The position numbers were made by a program, and so were the translations under genes. A stretch of 64,000 nt of DNA from Siphonodentalium dalli (Eukaryota; Mollusca; Scaphopoda; Gadilida; Siphonodentaliidae), in the NCBI GenBank assembly GCA_032622095.1, contig CP136061.1, positions 96,035,345 to 96,099,344 of the forward strand. Direction: 5' to 3'. The notes under the pieces are model-generated. The model was given only the letters and a program-made list of their open reading frames with translations, had not been told where the DNA came from and did no database searches. Below, one piece after another: positions 7,043 through 61,992 of this stretch (within the stretch, counting starts at the first letter, position 1; each line of letters starts with the position of its first letter).

Positions 7043-7136
7043 TATGTGACCCGCCATATCAAATCCAGTCGGAAGTCGAGATTTTTTTTACCCTGTGCCA
7101 ATGCATCTTCTATCTATCTATATCTATATTTGCGAA

Positions 7137-9430: not shown

Positions 9431-9934
9431 TTCTCTTATATATGCGAGTTGACCATATGCCGCCTCGCATATATAAGAGAATGCATTGGCCTCACAATTT
9501 TTTACAATTTTAATAATTTGTTCTTGTATTCTTTAACAATTTTATAATTTCACCCATACAGAGCCCCAGACAAACATGAGCAGACGACACTCTTCTATGT
9601 GCTTCTATATATGTGTGGGGCTCCCTGCAGGGTAATGGATGTTTTTTTATTTTATGTCCTAAAAATTGTAAGAAACATTTATTTAAAATACATGATAAAA
9701 AATTGTTAAGCCAATGCATTCTCTTATATATGCGAGGCGACCTATGGTGGACTCGCATATATAAGAGAATGCATTGGCACAGGGTAAACAAAAATCCCGA
9801 CTTCCGACTGGATTTGATATGGCGGGTCACATATGTTGTGCTCCCTGAACGCATATTTCCCGAGAATTAAACAGTTTCATCAATCATGAGGAAGGCATGC
9901 TAATGAGTCAGCATTATTGATGAGTTCAGTTAAT

Positions 9935-10835: not shown

Positions 10836-10927
10836 TTAACCCTTAATGACGGGAGCTGCACTGGTGCAGCATTAAATACCATGTGCCAGTGTATTCTCTT
10901 ATATATTCGAGTCTCTCATTGGGAGCC
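10836..10927 (+). mobile_element. Family H TTAA element, left end only
   Basis: TTAA at 10836-10839 is followed by CCCTTAATGACGGGAGCTGC and a short palindrome (CTGCACTGGTGCAG). Half of a degenerate hairpin module follows (GCCAGTGTATTCTCTTATAT). The sequence then breaks off into unrelated G-rich sequence, so the right end is missing. Confidence 0.6.
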
Positions 10928-11400
10928 GGGCACGTATTGCCGGGGTGGGTGGTCGATGGGACCAACTTTTTTTTCCCGCAACTCAATTTTGTTTTTCTGC
11001 AAGTCTTTTTGACTGTTTTTGCAATGAGTTTGGCTTAAAACACCTCAGAATGTCAATATTAACATAAATGAAAAATTTCATGATGATCAGACAAACAGTG
11101 GATTGAATTTTGAAATCCAAGATGGCCGCTGGCAGCCATGTTTTTGGGCCGAATGACCCCAAAATGACTCGTTCCTATTTACATGTCAATGATAAGATCC
11201 ATGACAAATAGTATGCACAGAAAGTCATATACAGCTGTTTACAGTTAATCCCCCCCGCAAATCTCTGTTTTAGTGTTAAAAGGGGTTAGGTGTCCAAAAA
11301 TGGTCGGGAAAAAACTGGCGAAAACGGAAAAAAAATTTGGACGCTGGGGTGGGTGGGTCCCAATAAGGGTCAAAAGGATAAAATCAGATACGTGCCTGAA
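10928..11400. mobile_element. Possible TIR element interrupting H
   Basis: CGGGCACGTATTGCC at the left and ATACGTGCCTG at the right are imperfectly inverted. GGGTGGGTGG tracts adjoin both ends, also as GGTGGGTGGGTCCC near 11350. The body reads AAATCCAAGATGGCCGCTGGC, without coding potential. No clear target duplication was found, so the limits are tentative. Confidence 0.35.
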
Positions 11401-12803: not shown

Positions 12804-13203
12804 TTAACCCTTTACCCAACAAACCGGCCAAAACCGGCCAAATAAAGCTTCAACAGCCTAAAATATCTTCGGTCTGTCTCAATAGAACCATACAAATATG
12901 GGTATCATTGGAACCGGCTCATTGACCACATTGTGATGGTTACAGTTATGCCCTGTGCCAATGCATTCTCTTATATATGCGAGTCGACCATAGGTCGCCT
13001 CGCATATAAAAGAGAATGCATTGGCCTAAAAAAAATCTTTTTTTAACACTTTTTACCATTTTTTCTTACAATCTTTAACAATTTTATAATTTTTAATATG
13101 TTAAGCCAATGCATTCTCTTATATATGCGAGGCGACCTATGGTCGACTCGCATATATAAGAGAATGCATTGGCACAGGGCCCTTCTGTTGGGTAAAGGGT
13201 TAA
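12804..13203 (-). mobile_element. Family A TTAA MITE, copy 1
   Basis: TTAA at 12804-12807 and 13200-13203 flanks inverted ends CCCTTTACCCAACA and TGTTGGGTAAAGGG. Orientation is opposite to the copy at 24042. The inverted pair of 69-nt hairpins lies at 12957-13025 (one arm mismatch) and 13105-13173, separated by an AT-rich spacer. The other side carries the A-specific tract with AACCGGCC and ATATCTTCGGTCTG. TTAA target and CCCT start fit piggyBac-type mobilisation; the MITE encodes nothing. Confidence 0.92.
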
Positions 13204-24041: not shown

Positions 24042-24441
24042 TTAACCCTTTACCCAACAGAAGGGCCCTGTGCCAATGCATTCTCTTATATATGCGAGTC
24101 GACCATAGGTCGCCTCGCATATATAAGAGAATGCATTGGCTTAACACATTAAAAATTATAAAATTGTTAAAGAATGTAAGAAAAAATGGTAAAAAGTGTT
24201 TAAAAAAGATTTTTTTTAGGCCAATGCATTCTCTTATATATGCGAGGCGACCTATGGTCGACTCGCATATATAAGAGAATGCATTGGCACAGGGCATAAC
24301 TGTAACTATCACAATGTGGTCAAGGAGCCGGTTCCAATGATATCCATATTTGTATGGTTCTATTGAGACAGACCGAAGATATTTTAGGCTGTTGAAGCTT
24401 TATTTGGCCGGTTTTGGCCGGTTTGTTGGGTAAAGGGTTAA
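24042..24441 (+). mobile_element. Family A TTAA MITE, copy 2 (reference)
   Basis: TTAA borders at 24042-24045 and 24438-24441; ends CCCTTTACCCAACA and TGTTGGGTAAAGGG. Hairpin modules lie at 24072-24140 and 24220-24288. Each has a perfect 27-bp stem (GCCAATGCATTC...), one T/C mismatch, a 5-bp inner stem CGACC/GGTCG and a 3-base loop. The second is the exact reverse complement of the first. The 149-bp right part (GTGGTCAAGGAGCCGGTTCC, GGTTTTGGCCGG) is specific to family A. Confidence 0.93.
24072..24140. repeat. 69-nt hairpin module (reference copy)
   Basis: The stem runs 24072-24098 against 24114-24140 with no mismatch. The arms include ATGCATTCTC and TTATATATGCGAG. Copies, whole or damaged, recur about twenty times in this window inside families A, G, H and I. 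Length, stem and small loop resemble a microRNA precursor, but no expression evidence is available. Confidence 0.9.
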
Positions 24442-29260: not shown

Positions 29261-29723
29261 TGTGACCCGCCATATCAAATCCAGTCGTAAGTCGGGATTT
29301 GTTTTACCCTGTGCCAATGCATTCTCTTATATATGCGAGTCGACCATAGATCGCCTCGCATATATAAGAGAATGCATTGGCCTAACAATTTTTTATCATT
29401 CTTTTTAAATAAATGTTTCTTAAAAATTTTAGGACATAAAATAAAAAAAACCATCCATTACCCTGCAGGGAGCCCCACACATATATAGAAGCATATAGAA
29501 GAGTGTCGTCTGCTCATGTTTGCCTGGGGCTCTGTATGGGTGAAATTATAAAATTGTTAAAGAATACAAGAAACAATTATTAAAATTGTAAAAAATTGTT
29601 AGGCCAATGCATTCTCTTATATATGCGAGGCGACCTATGGTCGACTCGCATATATAAGAGAATGCATTGGCACAGGGTAAAACAAATCCCGACTTACGAC
29701 TGGATTTGATATGGCGGGTCACA
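29261..29723. mobile_element. Family G MITE, intact copy
   Basis: TGTGACCCGCCATATC at 29261 and GATATGGCGGGTCACA closing at 29723, bordered by TA. Hairpins lie at 29313-29381 and 29603-29671. The spacer carries the small nested piece with CAGGGAGCCCCA and TGGGGCTCTGTA ends. This uninterrupted copy gives the empty site for the Helitron in the G copy at 7 kb. Confidence 0.92.
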
Positions 29724-31006: not shown

Positions 31007-31378
31007 TTAACCCTTTACCCAACAAACGGCCAAAACCGGCCAAATAAAGCTTCAACAGCCTAAAATATCTTCGGTCTGTCTCAATAGAACCATACAAATA
31101 TGGGTATCATTGGAACCGGCTCATTGACCACATTGTGATAGTTACAGTTATGCCCTGTGCCAATGCATTCTCTTATATATGCGAGTCGACCATAGGTCGC
31201 CTCGCATATATAAGAGAATGCATTGGCCTAAAACAAATCTTTTTTTAACACTTTTTACCATTTTTTCTTACATTCTTTAACAATTTTATAATTTTTAATG
31301 TGTTAAGCCAATGCATTCTCTTATATATGCGACCATAGGTACATTGGCACAGGGCCCTTCTGTTGGGTAAAGGGTTAA
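31007..31378 (-). mobile_element. Family A TTAA MITE, copy 3, one hairpin damaged
   Basis: TTAA borders and A ends as in the reference, reversed. The first hairpin is whole at 31159-31227. The second, 31307-31348, has lost its middle and reads TATATATGCGACCATAGGTAC before TTGGC. It adjoins a D segment at the same position and in the same relative orientation as the A copy at 41104. Confidence 0.9.
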
Positions 31379-31708: not shown

Positions 31709-31868
31709 TCTTTTTTTAAACACTTTTTACCATTTTTTCTTACATTCTTTAACAATTTTATATTTTTTAATGTGTTAAGCCAATGCATTCTCTTATATAT
31801 GCGAGGCGACCTATGGTCGACTCGCATATATAAGAGAATGCATTGGCACAGGGTCGTTCTGTTGGGTT
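31709..31868 (+). mobile_element. Family A fragment, right half
   Basis: Starts inside the AT-rich spacer and continues through a whole hairpin (31781-31849), GGCACAGGG and TCTGTTGGGTTAAAG. The other half and its TTAA are missing. It sits exactly at the outer border of the inverted duplication. Confidence 0.85.
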
Positions 31869-32464
31869 AAAGCACCTAATAATATTAGATTATGAATTTG
31901 TCCCGGTATCGAAATAATAAATATCGATAAATACTCGAACTACCTTTCTACGAATATCAAATGTTACAGAAAGACGCATTTAAGTAATACGAAATACAAC
32001 TTTGAACACAATGTTTTGCCCCAGCACATTTGCACGGCATGCAGTGGAACACAAAAGAGCGTTCCGTGTTAGTTTCTTCCTGATATGGTAGAAATAAAGA
32101 GCGTTTGGTTCACTTCGAAAAATTCAAAACAGCTGTAAAATGTATGTTCTTCAAAACGGTGTATCAATAGTTCGTGTATTTTAAACCTATTTTATAACGC
32201 TTTCAAATTACGTAGAACAAAATTGGAAGCTTGAATGAGCCATGTCCGTTTAAATATATCACATTTAATGATATACATTGCATATGACAATAGGTTGCAA
32301 TTATTAATTTCCCAAGTGAGTTATGAGATAATTCTGTCAGCGTCGACATTTTGTTGTATGTTGCCTGTTGATCGAGTCGTGTGCGGTGGCTTACAACAAT
32401 GTTGTGCAAACTATGATGTTGCAGGCAATGTTGTGAATGTTGCAACGTGTGCGGCAAGACTGTT
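31869..32464. other. Unassigned sequence with E-like fragment
   Basis: At about 32052-32110, AAAGAGCGTTCCGTG, CCTGATATGG and AATAAAGAGCGTTTGG resemble part of the long E form but no ends are visible. An 84-codon frame at 32235-32489 has no recognised domain. Confidence 0.4.
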
Positions 32465-32748
32465 CTCCCGAAAATACACTCATTTTTGAGTCGATAATGT
32501 GCTAAAATAAGAGCATTCTAGGCACATTATCGACTCATAATGCTGAGTCGATTCTAAGCAGATTATATGCTCATGACTTTTCAGGTGTACGCTCTTTAAC
32601 ATGTGTTTTCAATGTGGTCTGCGCCATAAAACGAATAACGGCGATGAGTCCATTATCTGCTTATTTCAGAATAAAATAATCACACATCATGTTCCTATTT
32701 CACATTATAGATCGATTATGTTCTTATCTGCGCGACGATATGTTGGCT
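32465..32748 (-). mobile_element. Family C element, copy 1
   Basis: Begins CTGTTCTCCCGAAAATAC and ends CGCGACGATATGTTGG. Internal tracts AGTCGATAATGTGCTAAAAT, CAGGTGTACGCTCTTTAACA, CCATTATCTGCTTATTTCAG and AATCACACATCATGTTCC are shared with other C copies. Slightly shortened at the left compared with the copy at 47 kb. Confidence 0.8.
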
Positions 32749-32757
32749 TGATTGGCT

Positions 32758-33176
32758 TTATTATAGCGATGAAATCATTGTGCGCGACGGACTTTATTGT
32801 AGCGATGAAATCATTGTGCGCGACCGGCTTTATTGTAGCGATGAAATCATTGTGCGCGACCGGCTTTATTGTAGCGATGAAATCATTGTGCGCGACGGAC
32901 TTTATTGTAGCGATGAAATCATGTGCGCGACGGACTTTATTGTAGCGATGAAATCATTGTGCGCGACCGGCTTTATTATAGCGATGAAATCATTGTGCGC
33001 GACGGGCTTTATTTTAGCGATGAAATCATTGTGCGCGACCGGCTTTGTTATAGCGATGAACTCATTGTGCGCGACGGGCTTTATTTTAGCGATGAAATCA
33101 TCGTGTGCGGCGGGCTTTATTATAGCGATGAAATCATCGTGTGCGGCGAACTTTATTATAGCGATGAAATCACACG
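32758..33176. repeat. 36-bp minisatellite, about 11.5 units
   Basis: The unit contains TAGCGATGAAATCATTGTGC then GCGACSGGCTTTATTG. It is 36 bp long except for one 33-34 bp unit near 32920. Since 36 is a multiple of three, long frames stay open (for example a 137-codon frame at 32780-33193), but they contain only the repeat. The array begins next to the CGCGACGATATGTTGG end of the C element, whose GCGCGAC resembles the unit. Confidence 0.93.
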
Positions 33177-33255
33177 AGTTGTTGCATGATTAATTCTTGC
33201 CATTTATTTCAATTGTATAATAACGTTAGGAACTACAAAGATCTCATTGCGTATG

Positions 33256-40914: not shown

Positions 40915-41625
40915 CATCGTCGTGCAAATAGGTTCATATTGGACCTAAATATTCATACAGGTTCAAATTGGACTGATTTAATTATGAAATAAGCCCCTGG
41001 TGTGCTAGCGTATGCTCGTTATTCCGTTGAATGGTGCGGGCCGCAGCGAAAACACATTATAAATGGTGTGAATCTGGTCAGTCGTGTCGATGAAAAAGGT
41101 AGTTTAACCCTTTACCCAACAGAACGGCCCTGTGCCAATGCATTCTCTTATATATGCGAGTCGACCATAGGTCGCCTCGCATATATAAGAGAATGCATTG
41201 GCTTAACACATTAAAAATTATAAAATTGTTAAAGAATTGCCAATGCATTCTCTTATATATGCGAGGCGACCTATGGTCGACTCGCATATATAAGAGAATG
41301 CATTGGCACAGGGCATAACTGTAACTATCACAATGTGGTCAAGGAGCCGGTTCCAATGATATCCATATTTGTATGGTTCTATTGAGACAGACCGAAGATA
41401 TTTTAGGCTGTTGAAGCTTTATTTGGCCAGTTTTGGCCGGTTTGTTGGGTAAAGGGTTAATAATGCAAATATGGGCTTATTTTGTTTAGAAATAATCCCA
41501 CATTTGACTGTTTTAAAAACCGCGTTTAGGTCCACATAGAGCGTATATTGAGGTTAAATAATGCCAGTATGAGCATATTTCGTTCATTAAAATAAGCCCT
41601 TTATGTGCTTATTTTAAAGAAAAAG
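40915..41625 (+). mobile_element. Family D element with nested A
   Basis: The left part 40915-41103 and the right part 41461-41625 form one D element (AATAGGTTCATATTGGACC, GAAAAAGGTAG, then AATGCAAATATGGGCTTATT, GCGTATATTGAGGTTAAATA). It is interrupted by the A element at its internal TTAA. 40780-41103 also exists inverted at 31379-31708. Confidence 0.88.
41104..41460 (+). mobile_element. Family A TTAA MITE, copy 4, short spacer
   Basis: TTAA borders at 41104-41107 and 41457-41460. Hairpins lie at 41134-41202 and 41239-41307, so the AT-rich spacer is only 36 bases against 79 in the reference. Other D copies show the uninterrupted target GGTAGATTAAAT, confirming TTAA as the duplicated target site. 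Confidence 0.93.
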
Positions 41626-42361: not shown

Positions 42362-42672
42362 AATATATATTAGAGAATGCATTGGCCTAATAATGTGTTT
42401 TTATTATTTTTTTTATAATTGTTAAAGAATATAAGAAAAAAAAATAAATTATAAACATTGTTATAGAATGTAAGAACAGATAAGAATGTAAGAAAAAAAA
42501 TGATAACAATTGTTAAAGAATGTAAGAAAATAAAAAAAATGTATAAAAAATTGTTAGGCCAATGCATTCTCTTATATATGCGAGGTGACCTATGGTCGAC
42601 TGGCATATACAAGATAGTGCATTGGCACAGTCTCTTTATTGTTGGGCCGGCGCAGCTCCCGCCATGAAAGGG
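42362..42672. mobile_element. Hairpin-bearing H-like element, left end lost
   Basis: Half a hairpin (AGAGAATGCATTGGCC at 42372) is followed by a long A-rich spacer with four TTGTTAAAGAATRTAAGAA-type units. A degenerate whole hairpin follows (42558-42626), then GCAGCTCCCGCCATGAAAGGG, which resembles the H terminus. The last base of the TTAA is changed (ATAC). Confidence 0.65.
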
Positions 42673-42807
42673 ATACACAAGAAGGACAATTAACATGGAT
42701 CTGCTGTTAGAGATACAATACTGGACAAGCGTGCTCATATTTAACCAGTTACAGAATAAACAAACCGACTACACGAGATGACGAATGAAGGCAGTGTTCA
42801 GCCTATT

Positions 42808-45057: not shown

Positions 45058-46492
45058 CAGTGTTCGCGCTGTCGGTAGCCAAATTAGCCAATGGCTAATC
45101 TTTTTCGAATTTGGCTAATAAAAATTTCATTTGGCTAAACTTTTGGCTAAACTTTTTTTGACCCAAAATGGAGACGGAAAGCATGGAGTCAGAAAGCTAA
45201 TTAATAAAAGCGCTCAATAGATCGACATTCAAGACGAAGTTAGGAGACGAAAGTACCGGTATTTCGTTATTTTCGTACTTATGAAATATCGTTCCGTGTG
45301 GCGGCTGTACAAAGGAACATTATTCTAAACAATTTCCCTGTGCTACTCACCGTGCTTCATGAGGATTCGTCGGCTAAATCCACTGGATTGTATAAGTCTA
45401 TAGCTTCCTACAAATTTCTGTATGTTTCACATTTCCTGAAGGATGTGCTTAAGGAGACGGCCATTCTCTGTAAGTTGTTCCAATGCTCTGTGATCGATTA
45501 TACGGACATCAATCCACTCATATCAGTAACAATTTCCAAAGTTGAGAAATTCACAAAAACGCCAGGACCGTCATTGAAGAAATTCCTGTCTGAAATTCCT
45601 AAAGTGCCACATCAAGATGACGGTTCCGAGTTTGAGTTTAGCTTTTCCATTTCTGGCCACGACATAAAGGATGGTGCCAAACTTCGAAAGGACAGTTCGT
45701 CAAATGCAGTTAAGTTTGCCACAAACATAGTTAAAAACCTGAGAAGTCGATTCGCAGATGACAAAGATTCTTCTGTTCTTGTTAGTTTGACTAAGATGTT
45801 TGACATTCGGACAACCGATAAGCAATTGACCAAGGAGCTGACGACCCTGATAAAGTATGCACTGCAGACAGACGATACATTGTCTGCAGATGTGGTCACT
45901 GATGAAATAATTTCCTTCCGTGCATTTTGTAAAACAAAGAAAGACATTAATGATGTAGACGATGGCTGCCAGTGTGCATTGAAATACAGAGAACTGTTTC
46001 CAATCGTAGGGCAGTTAGCGGAACGCTTTGTTTGTGTACCGGTTTCTACCGTGGACTGTGAGAGAGCCTTCTCCACTCAGAACATTATCAAAACCAAGTT
46101 AAGAAATAGACTATCTGTTGAATACTTGAATCAGTTGATGAAAATTTGCCTTGTTGGCCCAGCTATTTCGGAATTCGATTTTCACCGGGCTTTCTGCGCA
46201 TGGTCCGACGTGAAATCCCGTCGTATTTTATATTAATGTTTTGTGATATGTGATATGTTCGTATAATATTGATTTTAAAGTTGTTTTTGTGTTGTTTTAA
46301 TTATGTTTTCATTCTGAGTATAACAAATAAAGTTTAAAACAAATATTTTAGTCATTAATTGTGAACCGACCAGAAAACGATGATTTAATTTGGCCAAAAA
46401 ACATTTGGCTAAAGTTTTTTTCATTTGGCTAATAAAATTTTCATTTGGCTAAACTTTTGGCTAAAGTTTTTTTCGGTCCAGCGCGAACACTG
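45058..46492 (+). mobile_element. hAT DNA transposon, internally deleted
   Basis: Perfect 14-bp inverted ends (CAGTGTTCGCGCTG and CAGCGCGAACACTG) lie between identical 8-bp duplications. Subterminal zones contain four TTTGGCTAA-type motifs at each end (45089-45155 and 46390-46470), all reading the same way, candidate transposase-binding sites. The coding part is only the C-terminal half of a transposase, followed by AATAAA at 46326. A complete element of this hAT group is usually several kilobases, so this copy lost its N-terminal coding region but kept both ends. The intact duplication and long open frame argue for a fairly young insertion. Confidence 0.95.
45298..46236 (+). pseudogene. hAT transposase, C-terminal fragment
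   Basis: 312 codons stay open from a GTG; the frame is open back to 45244 without an ATG, so the 5' part is missing. It most resembles the ZNF862/KIAA1586-like hAT group, inferred from the wording of the C-terminal region. Residues 30-100 (SYKFLYVSHFLKDVLKET...) match the all-helical region with FLKDVL and LSKxFQ-like steps. Residues 228-290 contain the hAT C-terminal dimerisation motif with PVSTVDCERAFST (248-260) and IKTKLRNRLS (264-273). Glutamate 255 sits where the family has its third catalytic acid; the two aspartates and the N-terminal zinc finger are absent, so it cannot be an active enzyme alone. Confidence 0.9.
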
Positions 46493-47753: not shown

Positions 47754-48107
47754 CCGATGACAAGACTACAGTTGTGTAAATATGATTTGGAGCGGCATCG
47801 AGTGGATGCGGGATGAATCTATGGGAGAGAATAAAATGGACACCGGGCCCTGATTGGTTAACAATGCAACACACATCAACCCTATAAATTCCAATATGCA
47901 AAATATATATTGGCAGAGTAATTAACCCTTTGTAGAGAAGTTTGAATGTTGCGGTGAGGTCTAAAAAAAATGTTTAGTGCGGTTCTGACACTAGTTACGA
48001 AAACACAATATTTAAAGGCGAATTCCTTGCCTGTCGGATATGATCTTTTTGCCAATAAAGTTACCGCAAATGCCAGTCTTTCAAATTTAAAGAACATTCT
48101 GTCACCC
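47754..48107. other. Unassigned sequence
   Basis: No gene or repeat recognised; a 96-codon frame at 47970-48260 runs into the hairpin module and is not credible. Confidence 0.4.
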
Positions 48108-48655
48108 TGTGCAAATGAATTATCTTATATATATATGCGAGTCGACCACATGTCGCCCCACATATATAATCGAATGCATTGGCCTAACAAATGTTTTATT
48201 ATTTTTATAATTGTTAAAGAATATAAGAACAAATTAAAAATAATGTTAAAAAATTGTTAAAGAATGCAGGAATAAAATGACAAAATTGTTAAAGAATATA
48301 AGAAAACATTATAAAAATTGTTATAGAATGTAACAAATTATAGGATTGTAAGAAAAAAAAATGATTAAAAATGATACAAATTGTTAAAGTTAAAAACATC
48401 CATTACCCTGCAGGGAGCCCCACACATATATAGAAGCACATAGAAGAGTGTCGTCTGCTCATGTTTGTCTGGGGCTCTGTATGGGTGAAATTATAAAATT
48501 GTTAAAGAATACAAGAACAAATTATTAAAAAAGTAAAAAATTGTTAGGCCAATGCATTCTCTTATATATGGTCGACTCTCATATATAAGAGAATGCATTG
48601 GCACATGGTAAAACATATCCCGACTTCCGACTGGCTTTTGATATGGCGGGTCACA
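48108..48655. mobile_element. Family G MITE, left end truncated
   Basis: A diverged first hairpin at 48112-48183 starts right after CACCCTGTGC, with no TGTGACCC end. The spacer is expanded by TTGTTAAAGAATATAAGAA units and carries the CAGGGAGCCCCA...TGGGGCTCTGTA piece at 48411-48478. The second hairpin (48547-48602) has lost half its loop. The right end closes GATATGGCGGGTCACA at 48655, then TA. Confidence 0.85.
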
Positions 48656-48657
48656 TA

Positions 48658-49252
48658 TATGAAAAACAATTACAACACTGTAACCACTAGTAGATCAGTG
48701 TATATCGCCTGTGTATTACATTACCATATGCATATCTCATTTATAGTTTCGCTTAACACCAAACGGTACCAAGTCTGACACGACTGATCGTCGGTGATAC
48801 TAATTCAAAAGCACCCCGGCATATGGTGTAGCAAACATGTCGAGGAAGATGACCGTAAAGACACAGCGTACTAAGTCATCTTTATATTGAAGAAAGTGTC
48901 TTAAAAGCGCCTTTTATTGTAATGAAACGCAAGTGTCCTTTATAATGTTGTCGACTTTTAGATTAGCGCGCGTTATAAGTTCTCAGAGGAAACCGTATAG
49001 ATCAATAATCACATTAGCTGTACGTTAATCACAATAGGGATGAAACTGCTTGGCAAATGAGGCTTTGACATTCAGCATTTTTCACAGGCACCTAAATGAT
49101 AGGGACTGAATGTCACAGGGTGACACTCTTTGTAGAGGACACACATTTAGCCATTGTTTTAATGACTAAATTTATCAGAAGTCACGTTTGAAAGTGGGGG
49201 AATGGTCCAGTCTTAACAACGAATACTTTATTGTTTGTACGTATATGGTTAT
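48658..49252. other. Unassigned sequence
   Basis: No gene or repeat recognised. Confidence 0.4.
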
Positions 49253-49577: not shown

Positions 49578-49779
49578 GTCTGAATTGAATGCTTTACATT
49601 CGAAAACGATGTTTGGAGATGTTTGGACAAATCGGTTACTTGTAGATAATCGGTTTATGTGGCCTTCTACCGATTCGCATGCTCCAGTGTCATGTTTATA
49701 CAGTATATTTCAGAATATAACGGCAACTAACTCATTAACTCTTCCAAGATTACAGGAGCTTTCTGAAATTTGCGCAGCC
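49578..49779. other. Unassigned sequence
   Basis: A 124-codon plus-strand frame (49558-49932) crosses from the C end into the hairpin module, so it is not taken as a gene. Confidence 0.35.
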
Positions 49780-49924
49780 CTATGCCAATGCATTCTCTTA
49801 CATATGCGTGTATCCCATAGGGAGCCTCGCATATATAAGAGAGTACATTGGCCTAACAATATTTACATTGACCTTGTAAGCCGGTGCATTCTCTTATATT
49901 ATATATGCGAGGCTCCCTATCAAC
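49780..49924. mobile_element. Family H-like hairpin pair, truncated
   Basis: CCCTATGCCAATGCATTCTC starts a hairpin with the H-type loop (GTATCCCATAGGGAGCC). The H spacer AACAATATTTACATTGACCT follows, and then half of the second hairpin, cut off after GCGAGGCTCCCTAT. Neither TTAA end remains. Confidence 0.7.
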
Positions 49925-51586: not shown

Positions 51587-51841
51587 TTAACCATCTGATG
51601 ACTGAGGTCTCCTGACTTTTTTGCAAAAACCCTGTGGCAATGCATTCACTTATATATATGCGAGTCGCCTATATGGCGCCTAGCATATATGAGAGAACGC
51701 ATTGGCCTAACAATATTTACCTTGATCTTGTCAGTGCATTCTCTTATATATGCGAGGCTCCCTATGGCAAATTCGCATATATCAGATAATGCACTGACTG
51801 GCGCAGGATCTTTAATGCTGCCCCGTCATCAAAAGGGTTAA
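51587..51841. mobile_element. Family H TTAA element, complete copy
   Basis: TTAA at 51587-51590 and 51838-51841. The ends are CCATCTGATGACTGAGG and, inverted, CCCTTTTGATGACGGGG. Two degenerate hairpins (51633-51704 and about 51729-51803) surround the AACAATATTTACCTTGATCT spacer. The loop sequence (CCTATATGGCGCC, CTCCCTATGGCAA) differs from the A/G loop. Confidence 0.8.
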
Positions 51842-56323: not shown

Positions 56324-56587
56324 TTAACCATTTCACGACGTAAGCTGCGATGGTGCAGCGTTAATTATGTGCCAGCTCTTCTCTTATATATATGAGTATC
56401 CCATAGGGAGCCTCACGCATATAAGAGAATGCACTGACTTACAAGGGCAAGGTAAATATTGTAAGGTCAATGCATTAACTTAATGTGCGAGGTTCGCTAT
56501 GTGAGAGTCGCATACATTTATATACGAGACTATATTGCCACAGGTTTTTCGAAACATTTGAGGAAGCTCCAGTCATGGAAGGGTTAA
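56324..56587. mobile_element. Family H TTAA element inside the SINE
   Basis: TTAA at 56324-56327 and 56584-56587. Ends CCATTTCACGACGTAAGCTG and, inverted, CCCTTCCATGACTGGAGC. The first hairpin, near 56370-56438, has the H loop GTATCCCATAGGGAGCC; the second is badly decayed. Confidence 0.78.
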
Positions 56588-59385: not shown

Positions 59386-59862
59386 TTAACCCTTTCAGTG
59401 CCAAGTCAGATTTTTGTATCAACCCATATACATTGTGCCAATGCATTCTCTTATATATGCGATTCGACCATAGGTCGCCTCGCATATATAAGAGAATGCA
59501 TTGGCCTAACAAATTTTCATCATTTGTTATTATTTTTACAATTTTAATAATTTGTTCTTATATTCTACTCTCTTTCAGTGTCAGACTTATTTTGTAGGTT
59601 TAGTGCCAGGGAATCTTACGTTTTTCATGAGCATCAAAATTATTACTATGAATACTTGGTGATAGTTTTGAGTTATAACATGCCCCTAAGGTTTTAACCA
59701 GTTTGTTTTTAAATTCGCTATAGCATGCTTAAGCATACCCAAAAATAATTCAACCAAAAAAAATAAAATAATAATAATAATATTTTTTAAATTTTGTAGG
59801 GCCGATTTTACAGACCGTAAATTAGGGCCGATGAGATCGGCCCCTGGCACTGAAATGGTTAA
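59386..59862. mobile_element. Family I TTAA element with a single hairpin
   Basis: TTAA at 59386-59389 and 59859-59862; ends CCCTTTCAGTGCCA and, inverted, CCATTTCAGTGCCA. A whole 69-nt hairpin lies at 59437-59505 and the familiar AT spacer follows, but the second hairpin is absent. At 59571 CTCTTTCAGTGTCAGAC repeats the terminal motif internally, as if a hairpin-bearing piece had been added between two versions of the element's left end. The right part (GGGCCGATTTTACAG, GATGAGATCGGCCCC) is unique. Confidence 0.8.
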
Positions 59863-61592: not shown

Positions 61593-61992
61593 TTAACCCT
61601 TTACCCAACAGAAGGGCCCTGTGCCAATGCATTCTCTTATATATGCGAGTCGACCATAGGTCGCCTCGCATATATAAGAGAATGCATTGGCTTAACGCAT
61701 TAAAAATTATAAAATTGTTAAAGAATGTAAGAAAAAATGGTAAAAAGTGTTAAAAAAAGATTTTTTTTAGGCCAATGCATTCTCTTATATATGCGAGGCG
61801 ACCTATGGTCGACTCGCATATATAAGAGAATGCATTGGCACAGGGCATAACTGTAACTATCACAATGTGGTCAAGGAGCCGGTTCCAATGATATCCATAT
61901 TTGTATGGTTCTATTGAGACAGACCGAAGATATTTTAGGCTGTTGAAGCTTTAATTGGCCGGTTTTGGCCGGTTTGTTGGGTAAAGGGTTAA
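61593..61992 (+). mobile_element. Family A TTAA MITE, copy 5
   Basis: TTAA borders and ends as in the reference; hairpins at 61623-61691 and 61771-61839. By eye it differs from the copy at 24042 at only a few positions over 400 bp, so the two insertions are recent or homogenised. Confidence 0.93.

Follow-up and report, generated by a model that had tools for sequence, protein, structure and literature searches.

The element studied here lies on the forward strand at 24042-24441 of the window, by which we mean the whole 64-kb stretch of DNA that was analysed. It is a 400-bp MITE of what we call family A, which runs from TTAA to TTAA and has 26-nt terminal inverted repeats (88%). The first TTAA and CCCTTTACCCAACAGAAGGG are followed by a double-hairpin cassette (CCCTGTGCC...GGCACAGGG, 24066-24294, forward strand), in which CCCTGT precedes a 69-nt hairpin (24072-24140, forward), an AT-rich spacer resembling a shortened spacer of the subfamily H2 described below (24145-24215, forward), an inverted copy of the hairpin (24220-24288, reverse) and ACAGGG. 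A 147-bp right flank (24295-24441, forward) lies outside the cassette and finishes with the end TGTTGGGTAAAGGGTTAA. Together the two hairpins form an inverted pair of 80 nt (99%), its halves lying 71 nt apart. The first-pass annotation had given the hairpin 69 nt and a 27-bp stem; its length was right, but the arms measure 33 nt and contain one mismatch, and the loop has 3 nt. Folded as single-stranded DNA, the cassette (24065-24295) reaches -104.6 kcal/mol vs -21.5 +/- 3.65 for 200 shuffles, which places it 22.8 standard deviations under them. Among 877 candidate full-length genome matches to the element, all 40 that were scored were given as 100% identical.

The hairpin is shared by many other elements, and this sharing is real and well above chance. 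A BLAST search with the hairpin as query identified 26 hairpins, whole or damaged, within 15 elements of the window; the earlier estimate had been about twenty copies. Family A is further represented by complete copies at 12804-13203 (reverse strand) and 61593-61992 (forward), by copies with one damaged hairpin (31007-31378, reverse) or a shortened spacer (41104-41460, forward), and by a truncated copy with a single hairpin (31712-31870, reverse). Family G has GTGACCCGCC ends and is seen best at 29262-29722 (forward), where ATAT on both sides encloses two hairpins and a GC-rich core; a second G element lacks one end (9431-9831, reverse), and a third consists of the left end and the first cassette bases (7045-7106, forward). 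The core of G (for example 29452-29540, CCCTGCAGGGAGCCCC...GGGGCTCTGTATGGGTG) itself resembles an imperfect hairpin, and an apparent diverged relative of it, with other flanks, seems to be present at locus L011. Family H comprises a left fragment with part of the hairpin (10836-10937, forward), a truncated H1 copy (49735-49920, forward), two H1 copies with TTAA at both ends (51587-51841 and 56324-56587, both forward) and an H2 copy with an H end, the modern type of hairpin and an AT-rich repeat spacer, whose other end is lost (42365-42675, reverse). One family I element (59386-59862, forward) carries one hairpin, and a mosaic of families J and G occupies 47922-48685 (forward). The window also contains a short-period tandem repeat at 32577-33193, two frames of which give the repeats IAMKSLCATGF and YCSDEIIVRDGL.

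In the 2.23-Gb genome (9 contigs), the outer hairpin 33-mer CCCTGTGCCAATGCATTCTCTTATATATGCGAG has 62,118 + 61,903 = 124,021 exact copies, and its reversed control has 0. The cassette is a small double-hairpin DNA module with tens of thousands of genome copies. We fetched 40 regions around exact 33-mer places, taken from the first 100 matches listed, every one of them near the beginning of contig 1; since the regions were chosen by exact match, this sample is biased to young copies. Together with the window they contain 120 outer arms, distributed among the left (23) and right (26) sides of A, G (26), H (13), I (12) and other contexts (20). The flanks left unplaced are those of L011, of L018/L029 (one duplicated locus) and of an arm at L008:1166. 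Segmental duplicates (L002, L027, L028, L029, L039 and L062) were excluded from the consensus, distance, G-flank, TTAA, architecture and border counts, and kept in the 120-arm tally, the border comparison and the count of H ends. Transposase loci and the loci of the hairpin-less group I0 (L093-L108) were left out of the element annotation, consensus, distances, architecture and border count, and the J loci were also left out of the cassette border count. Locus L007 adds two tandem copies to the H, I and architecture counts.

Four end types, A, G, H and I, had been described as unrelated-looking, with dissimilar ends, and as showing two target preferences. The hairpin is indeed found in all four, but "unrelated-looking" overstated the case, three of them having piggyBac-like ends. 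The ends of A, H and I, as well as those of J, have TTAACCCTT in common; their dissimilarity therefore holds only in part, and the picture is that of one piggyBac-like kind with several ends and sets G apart; the end sequences of the set are CCCTTTACCCAACA, CCCTTTCAGTGCC and CCCTTYCATGAC, against GTGACCCGCC in G. Both flanks read exactly TTAA in 22 of 24 complete A copies, in 8/8 fetched copies of the hybrid AG described below, in 18 of 35 H pairs (L053 and L007 contributing two pairs each), in 5/11 I and in 11/14 I0 elements. For these counts the transposase loci were left out, the I0 loci were kept out of I and the AG loci out of A. Copies without an exact TTAA pair mostly have one side altered or shifted by 1-2 bases, or are damaged. 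The TTAA preference of A, H and I is therefore upheld and G does differ, but not by the plain TA proposed for it: identical 4-bp flanks occur in seven of nine complete G copies (ATAT in 4, ATTT in 3) and are unmatched in the remaining 2, although a 2-bp duplication, TA/TT, is an alternative reading of the flank. The 4-bp flanks, with ATTT in three of the seven matching copies, also argue against G as a Tc1/mariner MITE with a TA duplication. Kolobok elements, which likewise make TTAA duplications, have purine-purine starts and termini of the form 5'-RR and YY-3' in the available text of PMC9587614; they were rejected as a source of the TTAA families, given the CCC start of A, H, I and J.

The cassette border CCCTGTGCC...GGCACAGGG that had been put forward is present in A, G and H, whereas I has the left border only. 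Beyond it the flanks of A, G, H and I look unlike, while the hairpins are identical, so that different terminal inverted repeats surround one conserved interior in this group. The arrangement as an inverted pair around an AT-rich spacer, said to be the usual one, describes the element at 24042-24441, but hairpin number varies: I has one, the A copy at L022 has one, and H copies have from one to at least four.

One and the same 69-nt consensus was obtained from 49 hairpins of A, 17 of AG, 19 of G, 10 of I and 24 of H2. Identity of the consensus across A, G, I, the young H and the hybrid makes descent of whole elements an unlikely explanation, in agreement with the first-pass annotation. An older variant of the hairpin differs in its loop (TCTCCCATAGGGAGCC vs TCGACCATAGGTCGCC) and by two double changes that keep the pairing. 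A 39-mer of this variant has 689 + 683 = 1,372 exact genome copies, and 37 of the 39 loci fetched for it (the near-duplicates L061 and L062 included) carry a recognisable H end; the remaining two, L080 and L088, resemble decayed H by eye. Most H copies are about 250-270 bp long. The junction of H2, that is, H with the modern hairpin, has 93 + 129 exact genome copies, and among the 20 H2 loci fetched we identified the older hairpin in two (L119 and L122) and a G interior in one (L118). Most H2 elements contain an AT-rich spacer built from units of about 32 bp, and pieces like it adjoin the hairpin in A, G and I: all 12 window matches to the H2 spacer fall inside cassette elements, and the A element at L092:411-867 has an H2-like spacer. 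This likeness between AT-rich sequences at about 75-95% identity is softer evidence than the hairpin. At L007:855-1796 we also observed runs in which an H end (AACCCTTCCATGACTGGAGTTACCTCCCTTA) is repeated as copies of about 32 bp, together with a tandem unit of 97 bp made of an old-type hairpin and spacer.

The mean pairwise hairpin distance within families (nt 28-69, the H2, A, G and I loci having been picked by an exact match covering the first 27 hairpin nt) is 0.014 in A and in AG, 0.027 in I, 0.035 in G and 0.12 in H2. Over the same positions, A, AG, G and I differ from one another by a net divergence of -0.0004 to 0.0010, and from H2 by 0.003 to 0.005. When family labels were permuted, 0 of 500 shuffles gave a value as large as the observed mean of 0.0019, to which the comparisons vs H2 contribute the largest values; the families are therefore not perfectly mixed. 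The first-pass annotation had named separate cassette clades as old as the families as a refuting outcome; the cassettes of A, AG, G and I show no net divergence, and a small, non-random excess distinguishes H2. The older variant in H, the greatest distance in H2 and the shared consensus together make H/H2 the oldest home seen for the hairpin, and suggest that transfer went from H/H2 to the other families.

Hairpin-less relatives were identified for two of the recipients. The I0 elements are near-perfect palindromes of about 165-195 bp that run from TTAA to TTAA (502 candidates, 40 of them scored), and their outer 44 bp are those of I, bar one or two differences. The cassette-bearing I departs from I0 at CAACCCATAT(A)|CCCTGTGCC. 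The hairpin is absent from the I0 elements at all 16 fetched loci (L093-L108), and the sole arm seen there, at L095, is part of an adjacent A copy that meets the I0 element at a TTAA common to both. For J, 39 of the 40 scored genome copies end at positions 172-188 of the query, in which the cassette border of the window copy lies at 186, and no hairpin arm was present in 10/10 fetched copies. The window copy starts with J (47922-48104), continues with a cassette with an AT-rich spacer and the G core (48105-48608) and with the right end of G (to 48655), and then resumes J (48656-48685; TATGAAAAACAATTACAACACTGTAACC vs TATGGAAAACATTTACACCAGTGTAACC). This copy lacks about 50 bp of J as well as the left G end, and by eye ACC is shared at its junction; in our reading, G inserted first and a deletion that stops at the hairpin base came afterwards. 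Ends free of the cassette, which the first-pass annotation had proposed to look for, therefore exist as I0 and J, but empty forms of A and G did not appear in weak tests: the joined flanks of A matched the right flank only in all 40 scored of 64 candidates (97-100% identical), and G gave 6 candidates, with just 48-49-bp half matches.

Intermediates grading between end types were not met; what we identified instead were hybrids with sharp junctions. The hybrid AG combines A ends with a G interior, its right part reading CAGCCTAAAATA|CCC vs GTTACAGTTATG|CCC in A. Its junction has 146 + 145 = 291 exact genome copies, and all 40 scored of 543 candidates are 99-100% identical over it, so this hybrid has itself multiplied. 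A ends and the G core are both present in 8/8 fetched copies, and the spacer is shortened in a few of them. At L118 an H left end is joined to a G interior, which terminates on the right with TAAAAAAAA and is followed by unplaced DNA, and at L018 a G interior lies between unplaced flanks, its left junction within a T run that is also in G. By eye, the junctions of both loci fall at T or A runs.

Taken together, these observations favour, with a probability of about two in three, capture of the hairpin from H by breakage and rejoining at its base, followed by swapping of interiors through the shared hairpins; capture and recombination had been among the earlier suggestions, and the identical consensus, the older home, the hairpin-less I0 and J and the hybrids AG, L118 and L018 all argue for them. 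The hairpin would originally be the interior of the old TTAA MITE family H, in which the younger subfamily H2 would have given it its present form through two paired double substitutions close to the loop, along with a longer AT-rich spacer. This hairpin, with part of the H2 spacer, would then have been captured by other ends, those of A and I (TTAA) and of G (ATAT/ATTT flanks). Cruciform or hairpin DNA may have been broken at its base and rejoined by microhomology, or copied in repair after excision; breakage at that point would leave junctions beside CCCTGTGCC without a target duplication, and junctions at the hairpin base are what we observe, with microhomology at some. The same border at several junctions could reflect one capture that was passed on rather than many. 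As about 80 bp of identical hairpin arm is common to the families, recombination there would swap their interiors and yield AG; the A/G swap would need only recombination in two nearly identical 80-bp arms. The composites would be moved by transposases that read their ends, presumably piggyBac-like for the TTAA families, a proposal that follows from the ends themselves.

Other explanations account for part of these data. The ends may have diverged or been replaced around the kept interior of one ancestral element, as suggested for the coral CMITEs, and the TTAACCCTT common to A, H, I and J fits this proposal, as do the two compensatory double changes that keep the hairpin paired between H1 and H2. 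We nevertheless consider it unlikely, since I0 and J have the same ends without the hairpin, the target duplication of G is different, the outer flanks of A, G, H and I are unlike around identical hairpins, and AG mixes A ends with a G interior. An old shared interior homogenised by ongoing gene conversion, with no recent capture, would be in keeping with a net divergence close to zero between A, AG, G and I and with the existence of interior swaps; it is very improbable, as it leaves the hairpin-less I0 and J unexplained and no conversion is needed given how little the copies of A, AG and I diverge within each family.

It is also quite improbable that the double hairpin CCCTGTGCC...GGCACAGGG is itself mobile and inserts into MITEs as a hairpin transposon, another of the earlier suggestions. 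Such an element would explain why A, G, H and the left side of I all have one constant border, and would account for the cassette-like pieces at L018/L029 (a duplicate pair) and L011 that have no recognised end beside them. Yet a direct flank match of at least 3 bp occurs in 0/42 cassettes with both outer borders, which makes a freely inserting hairpin unlikely. Moreover, 100 of the 120 sampled outer arms fall within the four families, many of the other 20 being inner arms or lying in damaged copies of H or A, and the junctions of L018 and L118 lie in homopolymer runs that are also in G.

Transposases that could move the composites were looked for as well. The genome has at least 128 matches to a piggyBac transposase (116 of 649 candidates scored), many of which have open frames 500-700 codons long; a single TGA is common to one group of similar length. 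The locus L155 encodes a 653-aa open frame with PF13843, and both L155 and L156 start with sequences (TTAACCCTTTAGCCCGCAA and TTAACCCTTTACCCATCAC, respectively) that are like the TTAACCCTTTACCCAACA of A, though not identical to it; their right ends were looked for and not found. Among 24 piggyBac loci there was neither a partner with identical ends nor, at up to 5 errors, a hairpin arm. In the cut tail of L158, outside the transposase gene, an H copy begins (43 nt, 79%). A long A-like element (L031:1290-3001) is an A copy into which other DNA intervenes, and we read that DNA as a nested transposon. In the window, a 330-codon open frame at 45244-46236 with a hAT dimerisation region (PF05699, E 3.8e-9) is probably a transposase remnant.

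The origin of MITE interiors and the copy-number explosion of a few MITE families are poorly understood. The TTAA families resemble piggyBac-type MITEs in having TTAA on both sides, CCCTT ends and piggyBac transposase genes in the same genome, but differ from them in that a same-end partner was not found among the 24 transposase loci. In our literature search, the CMITEs of Acropora corals alone matched the phenomenon: according to the available text of PMC2872659, these are TTAA MITEs with unlike terminal inverted repeats and a shared 75-bp interior, the origin of which is left open there. As far as that text describes them, the likeness extends to the TTAA target, the CC[C/T]T ends, the several end types around an interior more conserved than the ends, the tandem arrays and the piggyBac link (PMC2872659). 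The TTAA duplication and CC[C/T]T ends are shared by our TTAA families and not by G. Compared with the coral elements as portrayed in that text, those described here have a hairpin pair as interior, an older home family, one other target preference and an amplified hybrid. The 60-nt CMITE core given in the available text has no match in the window and, elsewhere in our set, only 9-18-nt matches at chance level (E at least 0.28); on that basis, the two are the same kind of phenomenon and not the same family. Mobile hairpin elements of mitochondrial DNA, among which the available text of PMC2800124 includes double-hairpin elements and the sponge RHE, are alike in their repeated hairpin units; as described there they are organellar (PMC2800124), while the present hairpin is carried by transposons in a chromosome-scale genome.

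Our observations thus likely represent a known but little-explained phenomenon, here with a probable source and hybrids visible. Because a home family, module-less recipients and an amplified hybrid occur in one genome, the idea that composite MITEs are born through exchange of interiors can be tested directly, and an experiment is now possible on whether a non-coding interior raises the success of a MITE. We regard as rather doubtful, if conceivable, the idea that the double hairpin is a transferable, non-coding booster that raises the copy number of the MITE ends that acquire it. Should it hold, the module might act, for example, through better excision, escape from silencing or attraction of repair, and selection among transposons would spread the hairpin across families much as a domain comes to be shared by many proteins. 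Outside the window, at contig 1:794086-920855 and 735735-779403, cassette matches recur mostly every ~11,175 bp and ~14,560 bp, as if these regions were long tandem arrays with one cassette per unit.
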